20,721 nt of DNA from a virus: positions 1 through 20,721 of the IMG/VR virus record IMGVR_UViG_3300033143_004181; one strand, written 5' to 3'. How positions within the stretch are numbered: position 1 is the first letter of the stretch; the number at the start of each line of letters is the position of its first letter. Under the pieces are notes generated by a model, which was not told the DNA's origin, did no database searches, and saw only the letters and a list, made by a program, of their open reading frames with translations. A program made the position numbers and the translations under genes. Positions 1 to 19,817 of this stretch are shown here, piece after piece.

Positions 1-3000
1 AAGGCGGGGAAGATAGCGTCATTAAAGGCCGAGCTGCGCGTTGACGTTAGTGGCGAAAAGAACATCACCGCTAAGAAGGCCAGTGCCAAGAAACAATTAG
101 AAGCGATTATTAAAACTCTGCCAGCAGAGGCTCCGGAAGGTCAACAGCAGATCGTAGATAAAATGGTAAAACGGTTAAACGCATTAACAGAACGCGCAGA
201 GATGATAAAAAAGCGAGAAGAAAACCGGTTCCCCCGTGAGAAAAGATGGATAGAGGTTAAAAAGGGCAACCAGATGGAGATGCAGTTTTCACCTGAATAC
301 CGGGCGGCGCAAGATAAGGCAAATCGACGTTTCGTCCAGCGACTTCATTTTGCTCAGGCAACAGGCATGAAATTTCGGCGTAAGTATATGGTCCCGGTCG
401 AATTGAATAACGGCATGACGATATGGCTGCCGAATAATCAGCAGTCCATAAAAGGTACTGATATTGTTAAGACAATGGCGGAGATAGCCGCCGCCCCAAC
501 TACAGTTAAGCCAACCGCCATTAAATGGGGCAAGAAACAACCGCCCACTAAGCCGTCCAAAGTTGGTGAAATTAAAGACCAATCGGCTAAGGGCGTACTC
601 AAGGTAGTATATGGGATAACGTCCATAGAACAGACCCGCTATGGCATTAACGGCGTGAAGGTTACTGAAGATGAGATGGTCGCTAGTGACGGTAGAAGCC
701 TGCTGATAGTCAAGCGCAAGGGGGCTTTTAAGGAAATCGCTCAGAAGTATGAAAAGAATGTCGGGCCGATTCTTGACGCTTCAGGTAAAGTCGTTCAACA
801 ATATGAATGGACCGAAGACGGGACGGGCAAAGCAACCGGCCCCAGGTCATTCCCGGATTATAAGGATATAATTCCCAAAGACAACCTCGTTGCTACTATC
901 AAAGACCCTCAGAAGTTAATGCACGACATGAAACGGGCGGCTTTAATGACAGACCAGACCAGCAAGGGCATCCTGCTCTATCTTAATCCTGATAAGACTA
1001 TCGGAATGGCCGCTAAAATCCCCGAAGCTGGCACTTCCAAAATAAATGTTAATGATAACGCTGCTTATCTTACAGCTATTGACCCCATATTGCTATCTAG
1101 GTTGGTCAAGGCACATATCCAATTAGGCAGCAAAGAATTACAGTTGCATGTCATCGACAATGATAAACCGCTAAAGCTGGTGGGCGAGAAGGGTGATTTA
1201 AGTATATTAATGCCGATAGAAGCCCAATATGAGTTTGGCGCAGGATATAAGACCCCTAGTGGCGGTGGGCGTTTTGCTGGATTTGATATTATTACTCCGA
1301 TGTTGGCACAAGAGGTAGTGGATAATGTAAAAAGTGCGGTGGCAGGAACAAAAACCGCTGCCAAGCATTTCCCCAAACTGGCAAAGTTCTATGCTGGCCG
1401 AGCTGCTCAATTTGTCGAGAAGAGCTACGGAACGTCCGGCAAACAGCTTGCCGGTGATATTCGGGAAGTAGCTTTTCAATCCGCTCGCCGGTTCTCTCAG
1501 CAGTGGGACGATATAGCCATGCTCTTAAAAAAATTAAGCCAGTCGGAGCGGGTGGCCTTAATGCAGATAGGTCAGGGGCGCAGGAAGATAGACCCGGAAG
1601 TAAGAAAAAAACTAAAGCCTTATAATGCGGCAATGCTCAAAATAATGGATAGAGACATGAACACCGCCGCCGAGGTGGGTTATCAGCGGTTTGTGGGGGG
1701 GCAATGGCGAGATATAAAAGGTTCAGGTAGATGGACCCCCCAAGTATTAAACGAAAAGGGTCGTGACATCATATCGCGGTTAAGACAGAGCGGGATGGCG
1801 GACCCCAAAGTAGCAAAGGCTGCCGAGGATATGGTGGCCGAGGGTCTGGCCGAAACCCCGGAGCAGGCTTTTCAGAACATTATCGATTGGGATAATACAA
1901 AGGTGCGTGGTAAGGCCGGTTACTTTGAATCGACCCGCATATTACTGCCTAAATCTATGGTCGAATTTAATCCTGAAAAGGTTTTACCGCATACACTTGA
2001 AAAGAATGCCATGATGATCGAGGCAGCGAGAACTTTTGGTGAAATAGAGAAGTCCGAAGGCGGGCTGGATTTTATCAGGGCCAAAAAATTAGTAGAGAAT
2101 ATTGGCACCCAGTACGGTCAAACTCACGCTCAGGCTCTCAAAAAATGGCTCAGAGTCGAGTTTGGTTTGTCAAACGATTTACCCGATTTTGTTTCCGGGG
2201 TGATAAACACCGCTAACCGATACCAGACTTTTGTGCGACTGGGCTACCGGGTACCGTCGGCCTTGAGGAATCTTACCCAGGGTAATGTCAATCTGTTTAC
2301 CGCACCGTTATCGGCACACATTAAAGCCCTGGACGTTTTATGGCTCAGACCGTGGCGGGCGGAAGCGATAAAGCTAAAGAAACAGATCAAACGTTCCGGG
2401 GCGATAGTAGGCCAAAAAGAGTTAGCCGAAGTGGAGAGGGGGCCGACAGGAGAAGCACAGGCGCCAAAACTGGCAATGAAACTGTTTGGGGTAGCAGAAA
2501 AAGATGACCATTTTCGGGCCGCGTTAATAGGAAGGTTCGCGGCAGAAAAACATATTAACGACCTGTTCAAGTATATAAAAGGGGGCCCGCTCAGAAAAAT
2601 ATTAACTAGGATAAACTATGTCTCAATTAACCCTGAAGGTTATTTGCGTGACATGATTAAGAACAAGAAGTTCACACGCACGCTTACCGATATTGAAGTT
2701 GACGAGATATTAAGCCGCCCCCTTACCCTAGACGAAGTTGACCGGATTATGCACCGGGCCAGTGTTGATACCCAGTTTATCCAGAATATAGCTACCCGCC
2801 CGGTCCCCTGGCGAACGAACCCGTGGCTCAGAGGCGCGTTGAAGTTCAAGACTTTCGGCATACATCAGACCCGCCTGGTCTGGGGTGATGCAGTAAAGTC
2901 TGCTTTGAAGGGAACACTTGCCCCACTGCTGGAATATCTTTTATTTTCTACTTTGGGTGGCGAATTGTGGAACCTCACCAAAGACCTGATAAGCGGTGGC

Positions 3001-3828
3001 GATAATTCGCTCCTTTCTACTATGAAGAATCGCCCTGAAAAGCGCAAGGCGCAGGATATTGCCAAACTTTTAGTGAACGATTTTATCGATGGTGCCGGGC
3101 CTGGTATAATAGCGGATATTGGCTGGGGGGTCGGAAACTTTGTCATAGGCCCTGCTGGACAGACCTTCAATAATATGCTCGAATGGGCGGCTAATGTAAA
3201 AAAGCACCCGATCAAGGCCACGCAATATTTTGCCAGGCAAGAGCTTGCCGTCTCTCGTGACATCGAAGGGCTAATGGCTCGTCTTGACAAGACGTTCATA
3301 AATGAAAATAATAAACACTTTGAATATAGGCGATGGCGTAACCGGTCTTTTGAATGGCGTGAAAAGGCAGGTAAGTTCACAGAGGGCCGGACCGACTTCT
3401 GGGCCATGACCGGCAAGCAGGTCAAAGAGATTTTAATCGGTCGGCCAACCTATGAAAAGAAGCTCGAATACATATACGCCGCCAGGCAAATAACTTACGG
3501 CGATATAGATGACGCTGCGGATTATCTGGCGGAGCGAATAACAGACCTTAAGGCGGGTGGCAAGGGCTATACGGAAATTAAAAGGGCGATAGAAGGGTCT
3601 ATGAGGGCGAACTCACCTTTTGGTAATATCGCCAAAAGGGATATATCGACATTTTTGTCTCAGTTTAGTCCAGACGAACGAAGTAAGGGCCTGAAATTGC
3701 AGGCAACGTGGATAGCTGATTACAGAAAAGCTCTAGCCAAGGCGTTTCTAGGTGCCGGTTTGTCAGGTAGCACTCAGACCCGGCTTAAAACGCGAACACG
3801 ATCAACACGAACACGGAGATCACGATGA
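1..3828 (+). CDS. Giant phage internal virion / large polyvalent protein with an embedded sliding-clamp-like domain (5' partial)
   Basis: The frame is open from base 1, so the true start lies upstream; 1275 residues are visible. Numbering codons from base 1, the first ~180 residues are charged and helical. Residues ~190-410 resemble domains 2 and 3 of the DNA polymerase III beta clamp: ASDGR at 228, FPDYKDIIP at 284 and a closing ILMPI at 402 have the order and spacing of ATDGHRL, FPDYRRVLP and the terminal MPM motif of DnaN. The rest is mostly helical, with a GYRVPSALRNLTQG stretch near 744 and hydrophobic helices near 970-1000 and 1030-1060, as in large phage proteins thought to be ejected with DNA. 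The last residues are an Arg/Thr-rich repeat (TRTRSTRTRRSR). It overlaps the next gene by ATGA. The virion role is inferred from size, helix content and place upstream of a holin-like gene; no peptidase or lysozyme motif was recognised. Confidence 0.8.
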   Translation, partial: KAGKIASLKAELRVDVSGEKNITAKKASAKKQLEAIIKTLPAEAPEGQQQIVDKMVKRLNALTERAEMIKKREENRFPREKRWIEVKKGNQMEMQFSPEYRAAQDKANRRFVQRLHFAQATGMKFRRKYMVPVELNNGMTIWLPNNQQSIKGTDIVKTMAEIAAAPTTVKPTAIKWGKKQPPTKPSKVGEIKDQSAKGVLKVVYGITSIEQTRYGINGVKVTEDEMVASDGRSLLIVKRKGAFKEIAQKYEKNVGPILDASGKVVQQYEWTEDGTGKATGPRSFPDYKDIIPKDNLVATIKDPQKLMHDMKRAALMTDQTSKGILLYLNPDKTIGMAAKIPEAGTSKINVNDNAAYLTAIDPILLSRLVKAHIQLGSKELQLHVIDNDKPLKLVGEKGDLSILMPIEAQYEFGAGYKTPSGGGRFAGFDIITPMLAQEVVDNVKSAVAGTKTAAKHFPKLAKFYAGRAAQFVEKSYGTSGKQLAGDIREVAFQSARRFSQQWDDIAMLLKKLSQSERVALMQIGQGRRKIDPEVRKKLKPYNAAMLKIMDRDMNTAAEVGYQRFVGGQWRDIKGSGRWTPQVLNEKGRDIISRLRQSGMADPKVAKAAEDMVAEGLAETPEQAFQNIIDWDNTKVRGKAGYFESTRILLPKSMVEFNPEKVLPHTLEKNAMMIEAARTFGEIEKSEGGLDFIRAKKLVENIGTQYGQTHAQALKKWLRVEFGLSNDLPDFVSGVINTANRYQTFVRLGYRVPSALRNLTQGNVNLFTAPLSAHIKALDVLWLRPWRAEAIKLKKQIKRSGAIVGQKELAEVERGPTGEAQAPKLAMKLFGVAEKDDHFRAALIGRFAAEKHINDLFKYIKGGPLRKILTRINYVSINPEGYLRDMIKNKKFTRTLTDIEVDEILSRPLTLDEVDRIMHRASVDTQFIQNIATRPVPWRTNPWLRGALKFKTFGIHQTRLVWGDAVKSALKGTLAPLLEYLLFSTLGGELWNLTKDLISGGDNSLLSTMKNRPEKRKAQDIAKLLVNDFIDGAGPGIIADIGWGVGNFVIGPAGQTFNNMLEWAANVKKHPIKATQYFARQELAVSRDIEGLMARLDKTFINENNKHFEYRRWRNRSFEWREKAGKFTEGRTDFWAMTGKQVKEILIGRPTYEKKLEYIYAARQITYGDIDDAADYLAERITDLKAGGKGYTEIKRAIEGSMRANSPFGNIAKRDISTFLSQFSPDERSKGLKLQATWIADYRKALAKAFLGAGLSGSTQTRLKTRTRSTRTRRSR

Positions 3829-10073: not shown

Positions 10074-10120
10074 AAAATAATGCCGCGAAAGGTAAATGAT
10101 AAACAGAAAGGAAAATCATG
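10074..10120 (+). repeat. Direct repeat copy 1, with a remnant gene end
   Basis: This copy matches 11121-11166 with few differences. In one frame it reads NNAAKGK and then TGA (10076-10099), the same residues that end the protein encoded at 10118-11149. It looks like the 3' end of a lost or displaced upstream copy of that gene plus the ribosome-binding region. Confidence 0.55.
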
Positions 10121-11149
10121 TGTAGGGCTGCTAGTTTCGTTTTAGTTAAAAAGCATAACGAATTATTGGCGTTATGGCATCCAGATATATCTGACTCACA
10201 CGAAGATATTATCGAGCATTTTGGGTTGCGTGAGAAAAACGTGCGTGGCGAAATTACCTTTGCGCGGGTAGAGATAGTGCCGCCAAACAATAATTACGTC
10301 TTACCCCTATCGAAGTGGGTATATCTTTTAGACCAGGATTGCCTGCCTGAATGGTATGACCCAACAAAAGCAGAGGCAGCAGCACGTATGGCGCTAAAGC
10401 AATGGGTTAAGGCCAAGCTCGTTAAGCCTGGCAAGAGAAGGGTTTTTACGCGTAATGCTAAGGTCTCGGTTGTGCTTGGACATGCTGAGCTGCGGGGCAA
10501 TTCGTCCGCTGATCTGCGGGGCAATTCGTCCGTCGTGCTGCGGGACAATTCGTCCGCTCAGCTGCGGGGCAATTCGTCCGCTGTGCTGCGGGACAATTCG
10601 TCCGCTGTGCTGCGGGACAATTCGTCCGCTGAGCTGTGGAGCAATTCGTCCGCTGAGCTGGGGGACAATTCGTCCGCTGAGCTGCGGGACAATTCGTCCG
10701 CTGCGCTGTGGAGCAATTCGTCCGCTGTGCTGGGGGACAATTCGTCCGCTGAGCTGGGGGACAATTCGTCCGCTGAGCTGGGGGACAATTCGTCCGCTGA
10801 GCTGCGGGGCAATTCGTCCGCTGTGCTGCGGGACAATTCGTCCGTCGTGCTGCGGGACAATTCGTCCGTCGTGCTGCGGGACAATTCGTCCGCTGTGCTG
10901 CGGGACAATTCGTCCGTCGTGCTGCGGGGCAATTCGTCCGCTGCGCTGCGGGACAATTCGTCCGCTAAGCTGCGGGGCAATTCGTCCGTCGTGCTGCGGG
11001 ACAATTCGTCCGCTCAGCTGTGGGGAAATTCGTCTATCGCAACATCCGAATCAAGGCATAGCGTAATCATCGATAGATCACGTCCCCAAAAAGCACCGAC
11101 AGTTCTCGTTGGTATAACCGAAAACAACGCTGCGAAAGGTAAAAGATAA
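10118..11149 (+). CDS. Octapeptide-repeat protein (23 x NSS repeats), predicted beta-solenoid
   Basis: 343 residues. Residues 1-125 form a globular domain (MCRAASFVLVKKHNELLALW, then WVYLLDQDCLPEWYDP and AARMALKQWVKAKLV) that I associate with small phage proteins of unknown function. Residues 126-309 are 23 consecutive eight-residue units of the form (R/G/W)-(G/D/S)-N-S-S-(A/V)-x-L. The invariant N-S-S and the Leu every eight residues suggest a beta-solenoid with stacked Asn/Ser ladders. Phages often carry comparable 'GNSTV' repeats. A short polar tail follows. The 24-bp units keep the frame through any whole-unit gain or loss. AGGAAAATC before the ATG gives the start. Possible roles are binding to a surface or ice-like lattice, or host interaction; none can be chosen from sequence. 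Confidence 0.8.
   Translation: MCRAASFVLVKKHNELLALWHPDISDSHEDIIEHFGLREKNVRGEITFARVEIVPPNNNYVLPLSKWVYLLDQDCLPEWYDPTKAEAAARMALKQWVKAKLVKPGKRRVFTRNAKVSVVLGHAELRGNSSADLRGNSSVVLRDNSSAQLRGNSSAVLRDNSSAVLRDNSSAELWSNSSAELGDNSSAELRDNSSAALWSNSSAVLGDNSSAELGDNSSAELGDNSSAELRGNSSAVLRDNSSVVLRDNSSVVLRDNSSAVLRDNSSVVLRGNSSAALRDNSSAKLRGNSSVVLRDNSSAQLWGNSSIATSESRHSVIIDRSRPQKAPTVLVGITENNAAKGKR
10493..11044 (+). repeat. 24-bp tandem repeat array, 23 units
   Basis: Units follow the pattern (C/T/G)GGGG/GAC-AATTCGTCCGCT-x-x-GCTG. The AATTCGTCC core is unchanged in nearly every unit, while the first two and the seventh codons vary among a few options. The array is open in other frames on both strands only because the unit lacks stop codons. 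Confidence 0.95.
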
Positions 11150-19274: not shown

Positions 19275-19817
19275 ATGGGTAAAAAAGGCAACAAATCGCC
19301 TTTGACGGCACAGCAAAAACAACTGGCGGCTGACAATATGGGTCTGGTCTTTAAACTCTTGCGTGATGCGTATCAGAATTATCCCTCGTTAACAGAGTCC
19401 GACCGCGACGAGTTATTAGGTCATCTTTACGAGGCACTGGTGCGAGCGGCCAGAGGGTATAAAGATTTGGGCTATAAGTTCTCGACTTACGCAACGAAAG
19501 CGTTGAAGCGCGAGACGTGGTATTATTTGAGCAAGCGTAACCGCCGCAGGCGCAGAATACCTCTGGTTGATGCTCCTATTGAGGAGATGCAGATAGCAAC
19601 CACTGAATCATCAGCGGATAATCCGATTATTACCTGGTCTGAATTAGATAAGATATTTCGCAGAGCAGAATTGTCGGATCACCAGGCCAATTGCTTAAGA
19701 TTGCGGTTCAAAGAAGGCAAGACATTATGGCAGATCGGGAGGATTCAACGGCGCTGTCCTTGGGGGATAACACTTGCGATCAGGGCGGCTCTTGAGAAGA
19801 TTCGGGCGGTTTGGTAG
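19275..19817 (+). CDS. Phage-encoded sigma-70-like RNA polymerase factor
   Basis: 180 residues. Region 2 covers about residues 12-85 (LAADNMGLVFKLLRDAY, then DELLGHLYEALVRAA, then KFSTYATKALKRETWYYL). A very basic RNRRRRR follows. Region 4 (about 132-178) has LSDHQANCLRLRFKEGKTL followed by a helix-turn-helix (WQIGRIQ...WGITLAIRAALEKI). Region 1.1 is absent and region 3 is short, as in small group 4 or phage sigma factors. It would direct host RNA polymerase to phage late promoters. It lies at the end of the early/middle block, the expected place for a late switch. Its last 38 bases overlap antisense with the convergent gene ending at 19780. Confidence 0.85.
   Translation: MGKKGNKSPLTAQQKQLAADNMGLVFKLLRDAYQNYPSLTESDRDELLGHLYEALVRAARGYKDLGYKFSTYATKALKRETWYYLSKRNRRRRRIPLVDAPIEEMQIATTESSADNPIITWSELDKIFRRAELSDHQANCLRLRFKEGKTLWQIGRIQRRCPWGITLAIRAALEKIRAVW

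Follow-up and report, generated by a model that had tools for sequence, protein, structure and literature searches.

What is part of a bacterial sliding clamp doing inside a giant phage protein? The question is raised by the first 20,721 bases (the window) of the 39,245-base IMG/VR record IMGVR_UViG_3300033143_004181, in which the initial annotation, made from the letters alone, had seen a segment resembling domains 2 and 3 of the clamp protein DnaN within one very long open frame. The frame, whose product is called the giant below, is laid out as follows.

1-3828, + strand: giant open frame in frame 1, 1275 codons, continuous and open at the scaffold 5' end.
1-558, + strand: residues 1-186, the expected place of domain 1; no DnaN domain 1 detected.
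559-720, + strand: first half of domain 2, residues 187-240, with a helix and the motifs RYGING and ASDGRSL; DnaN-only HMM i-E 2e-8; strands and helix in the model.
721-846, + strand: second half of domain 2 and linker, residues 241-282; shorter than in DnaN by alignment and model, and poorly modelled.
847-1224, + strand: clamp domain 3, residues 283-408, from FPDYKDIIP to LMPIEA; DnaN-only HMM i-E 1.4e-16; pLDDT mostly 80-94.
1225-3828, + strand: C-terminal 867 residues of the giant; no detectable relatives.

The giant is strongly basic (net charge +69, with +3 for the clamp segment), which could suit packaging alongside DNA, and GC and GC3 are even along its frame. Searches of Pfam, PHROGs and NCBIfam recognised no domain in it besides the clamp segment; a weak ParE_toxin match at residues 27-84 (E 0.004-0.02) falls below the cut-off. 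The hexapeptide QMEMQF at residues 91-96 was considered as a clamp-binding-like motif and set aside as lying near the chance level. No relative of the giant or of its clamp segment was found in viral contigs, in genome contigs or, by tblastn, in phages, and the giant has none in seven P22-type phages and part of an eighth, chosen by portal, terminase or capsid similarity.

Residues ~187-408 (window 559-1224) are almost certainly a divergent homologue of DnaN domains 2 and 3. Against a DnaN-only profile built from 57 other viral clamps, with the giant left out, hhalign aligned residues 194-408 at E 5e-16 with a score of 120.7, while 30 shuffles scored 23.8 or less. An HMM of 13 DnaN sequences singled out the giant among 2423 ORFs (E 8e-9). 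Curated models agree at lower strength: Pfam PF02768 (DNA_pol3_beta_3) matches the segment at E 8e-4, its 16-20 bits lying below the cut-off of 27, and NCBIfam TIGR00663 (dnaN) at E 5e-7, with 29-35 bits, below the cut-off of 137.65. The phage profile phrog_947, 'DNA polymerase processivity factor', is matched over columns 124-364 of 368, spanning both domains (E 3e-4), and phrog_3007 matches as strongly (E 4e-4). PDB sequence matches are beta clamps in 32 of 33 cases, the best at E 7e-4. In the phage and plasmid collections every match was of dnaN type: the processivity factor of Rhizobium phage 16-3, dnaN genes of plasmids, and a Shinella frame without annotation that encodes a full DnaN. 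Profile searches in Pfam, PHROGs, NCBIfam and the PDB thus bear out the module first proposed, and its motifs are where they had been placed (QTRYGINGV at residues 211-219, MVASDGRSL at 226-234, FPDYKDIIP at 284-292 and LSILMPI at 400-406). The segment is strongly divergent (about 25% identity) and has diverged from all known dnaN. The pattern FPDY-x-D-[IV]-[IV]-P also occurs by itself in non-clamp phage proteins (one scan for it gave no matches, the other six loci, none of them a clamp), and the case for a clamp therefore rests on the whole profile rather than on this motif.

Predicted structure points the same way. With a 58-row alignment, AlphaFold returned a model with pLDDT 72.5 and pTM 0.73; confidence is good in domain 3 and low for residues ~252-279 in the second half of domain 2, where pLDDT is under 50; from the single sequence the fold was poor (pLDDT 37.8). 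The best Foldseek match has E 9.9e-10, and VIA-align superposed 193 residues on clamp residues 118-366 (Z 16.1, rmsd 3.4); among the matches listed, Foldseek's from the PDB and VIA-align's alike, there are only beta clamps. The fold thus matches the clamp as the initial annotation had anticipated, in a model that leans on the alignment of homologues, so that the structural match and the sequence evidence are not independent lines. On that alignment-driven model, Foldseek and VIA-align assign the clamp fold to domains 2 and 3.

The source phage is a P22/SU10-like podovirus; its portal, adaptor and capsid genes, and others of tail/ejection-like type, lie in the second half of the scaffold. The window encodes an integrase, by which the phage is temperate, together with a Sak4-like annealing protein, an exonuclease and RusA; no DNA polymerase was recognised on the scaffold, and the phage therefore probably needs host replication. 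A run of 13 Ns at scaffold 20722-20734 (L003:722-734) directly follows the window, which itself has none. The record is therefore a scaffold, and how its two halves are ordered depends on the assembly. Both the record ends lie inside genes: structural genes run up to the scaffold end, and the break separates the tail genes from the giant, cut off at its 5' side, which would come after them only in a circular or permuted genome. We infer that the giant adjoins the virion genes and, from its position and size, that it is virion-carried.

Three other features of this phage may be recorded here. The large terminase is apparently split into overlapping frames (L003:1245-2240 and 2126-3052; whole L003:1245-3052) by a frameshift, a sequencing error or an intron-like break. 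The protein of window 10118-11149 has 24-nt tandem repeats (NSSAxLRD units) whose in-register copies are about 85-90% alike, and other frames across the array are also open. A small protein at window 19275-19817 has weak matches to sigma-70 regions 2 and 4 (E 0.002) and is possibly a phage sigma factor.

A clamp embedded in a giant had been called unexpected; the description holds, but the arrangement is not unique, and the search for similar segments in other large phage proteins found two. A scan of viral contigs with the clamp alignment gave 59 loci, most of them separate proteins of DnaN size. At one locus, L032, all three clamp domains are present within a long frame. The extended record sequence of the same phage, L090, shows the following.

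L090:7071-15509 (IMGVR_UViG_3300037200_000158): second giant, 2812 residues.
Residues 545-639: 2H-phosphoesterase-like domain.
Residues about 890-1195: adenine-methylase-like (N6-methylase) domain.
Residues 1567-1957: DnaN domains 1-3, all three Pfam domains above cut-offs.

By the usual sequence criteria, the L090 giant is a polyvalent protein. Its clamp retains most pocket residues, and a DNA-ejection protein gene (phrog_598, E 3e-11) lies two genes upstream. In the same phage, a frame at L091:2410-3207 encodes tandem repeats of the SGCSDCSGC type. The other case is BFVD A0A6J7W9M3, a model fragment of 1394 residues named 'Large polyvalent protein-associated domain-containing protein', which matches the clamp model at E 8e-6. 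Another 80 viral loci, sampled later, held no further giant with a clamp; embedded clamps are thus rare, roughly one among well over a hundred clamp loci sampled. The C-termini of the window and L090 giants have no detectable relation to each other, and genome contigs held no relatives of the L090 giant.

Can such a segment close around DNA? The initial annotation had noted that domain 1 seemed absent, and absent it is from its normal place: a domain-1 HMM found no match in residues 1-1275 (hhalign probability 0.2) of a giant whose 5' end the scaffold lacks, while the same HMM found domain 1 in the L090 giant at E 7e-16. In domain 3, about 10 residues are gone around the positions of E. coli E303-I305, the dimer edge, where we take I305 to lie at the clamp subunit interface. 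An insertion of 11 residues follows NAAYL, and the positions of E. coli I272/L273 are occupied by L/M. Among the Foldseek matches is PDB 3pwe, the solved E. coli clamp mutant R103C/I305C. With domain 1 absent and the E303-I305 region deleted, the giant lacks the DnaN-type interface between domains 1 and 3. Having two domains, lacking the dimer edge and lying within a long chain, the segment is unlikely to form a closed DnaN ring. The suggestion that the module tethers an ejected protein to DNA is accordingly weakened for the window protein as far as an encircling ring is concerned.

A working clamp on DNA might still arise if domain 2-3 units assembled, three copies as in PCNA or together with host DnaN, and so anchored the giant on the entering genome or the host polymerase. 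Phages do have separate clamps of about two domains, such as phrog_3007 with its 171-residue member in BcepC6B and the 211-235-residue clamp folds in BFVD, Bacillus phage Sam46 among them, and the L090 giant has all three domains with most pocket residues. A shorter E. coli DnaN product without domain 1 (beta*) is also reportedly active, which we count on the same side. Set against these precedents are the deleted E303-I305 edge, a domain 2 of which half is degenerate, and a segment that is only mildly basic, and we regard assembly into a working clamp as unlikely here.

The peptide-binding pocket is kept in part: its hydrophobic floor is retained and its basic rim is not. Floor positions are identical or similar throughout (L155I, T172S, G174, L177, P242, V247I, N320, Y323, V360I, M362, P363 and M364I), and they include the residues V247, L177, V360, P242, M362 and G174, which in the clamp hold the leucine of the UmuC peptide (PMC3716654). 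The rim has changed at four basic positions (H175R, R176S, R246D and R365E) that 91-98% of phage clamps conserve. As read from the alignment, the basic rim (E. coli R176, R246 and R365) is lost or reversed in charge, so that binding of the usual host clamp-binding motif may be lost. The retained floor argues for a surface that may still hold a peptide, with changed specificity. At conserved columns, however, identities number 11 of 21 in the pocket and 17 of 29 elsewhere; the pocket is no better kept than the rest, and its retention may reflect the fold only.

Another view is that a captured clamp gene survives as a folded spacer in the giant, a structural leftover with no binding function. 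Strong divergence, the shortened domain 2, the loss of the dimer edge and the altered rim all accord with it, but the hydrophobic pocket positions and core motifs remain and clamps recur in other giants, which makes a mere spacer rather improbable. The module might instead be a decoy or inhibitor that, once ejected, titrates or blocks the clamp loader or the host's clamp-binding proteins and weakens host replication or clamp-dependent defence. The kept pocket floor would suit this role, and polyvalent proteins have been proposed to act early on host functions (PMC5512222). Yet few copies per virion are to be expected against an abundant host target, the reversed rim should weaken binding of host motifs, and the phage is temperate and probably depends on host replication; we think such a role improbable. 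An artefact, whether chance similarity or a chimeric assembly joining a piece of host dnaN to a phage gene, is already largely refuted and scarcely credible: the record does end inside genes and is a scaffold interrupted by 13 Ns, but the frame is continuous with even composition in a window without N, the E of 5e-16 stands clear of shuffles, the segment has diverged from all known dnaN, and other giants carry clamps.

The reading that we favour, tentatively, is that the segment is a clamp-derived docking module, not a ring, of a virion-delivered polyvalent protein. Homology to the clamp, the retained pocket floor, the lack of a ring, the P22/SU10-type carrier, the clamp in the L090 giant and the known non-ring viral clamps all point to docking; since no relative of the window giant was found, the readings are not separable by sequence alone. 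DnaN domains 2 and 3 would have been incorporated into a polyvalent protein that is large, basic and probably carried in the virion, and the giant would be packaged and ejected together with the DNA. Its clamp-derived surface may then hold a peptide partner near the incoming genome, presumably to the benefit of the phage. Candidate partners are a host or phage replication or repair protein, or another part of the giant itself.

Clamp parts in the giants of two phages suggest that phages may deliver such parts into the cell with their DNA. A bolder proposal, which we hold to be possible though rather doubtful, is that phages deliver working clamp activity, ejected polyvalent clamp modules loading onto the incoming genome or docking replication and repair enzymes there in the first minutes, before phage gene expression. 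For this the complete L090 clamp would be the better candidate and the window protein a reduced, non-ring form. If the giant is virion-delivered, replication or repair machinery would be engaged by an ejected protein at the very moment of entry. Separate phage clamps are known and so are polyvalent proteins; the element that seems new is the clamp as a polyvalent domain.

A comparison with DnaN (PF02767/PF02768, TIGR00663) and phage DnaN (phrog_947) shows what has been kept and what has changed. The segment has the sequence and fold of domains 2 and 3, the hydrophobic pocket floor and the common motifs RYxxNG, ATDGxxL, FPDY and MPM. Unlike DnaN, it has no detected domain 1, a shortened domain 2, a partly missing dimer edge and no basic rim, it is internal to a protein of at least 1275 residues, and it scores below curated cut-offs. 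Phage-encoded clamps as such are common, one plasmid DnaN query matching 173 phage records. The phrog_3007 mini-clamps (BcepC6B gp31, IME207-like phages, L084) also do without domain 1, but they are separate proteins of about 170-215 residues whose domain 3 is shortened too. The window segment is embedded and its domain 3 is fuller, which sets it apart from a stand-alone mini-clamp. BcepC6B gp31 (L179:1273-1788; 171 residues) adjoins a DNA polymerase gene. Members of phrog_3007 (L084:3903-4541; BcepC6B gp31) mostly go under the name of RusA-like Holliday junction resolvase or of DNA polymerase III beta subunit; the family looks like a small clamp of domain 2 and part of domain 3, and the resolvase name seems wrong.

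Polyvalent proteins of phages and conjugative elements are an established class (Iyer et al. 2017, PMC5512222). The window giant resembles them in size and in its expected place near virion genes, with the clamp as its only recognised domain, and the L090 giant in joining a 2H-phosphoesterase, a DNA methylase and a clamp in one chain. A large protein lies beside virion genes in L090; for the window giant, of at least 1275 residues, the scaffold ends lie between. The survey that defined the class mentions no clamp, DnaN, PCNA or processivity domain, and in the open-access literature a clamp was nowhere described as a polyvalent domain, though it may have been reported earlier elsewhere; the one paper there that names both polyvalent proteins and sliding clamps does so in unrelated passages. 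The virion RNA polymerase of coliphage N4, a giant ejected protein, shares the idea of delivering a part of the replication or transcription machinery with the DNA; it is an enzyme, whereas the window giant would bring a clamp module by an ejection that is presumed. Herpesvirus UL42 and UL44 are non-ring viral clamps (PMC9690074). Like the docking module favoured here, they have the clamp fold without a closed ring; unlike the window giant, they are separate, strongly basic proteins bound to a polymerase.
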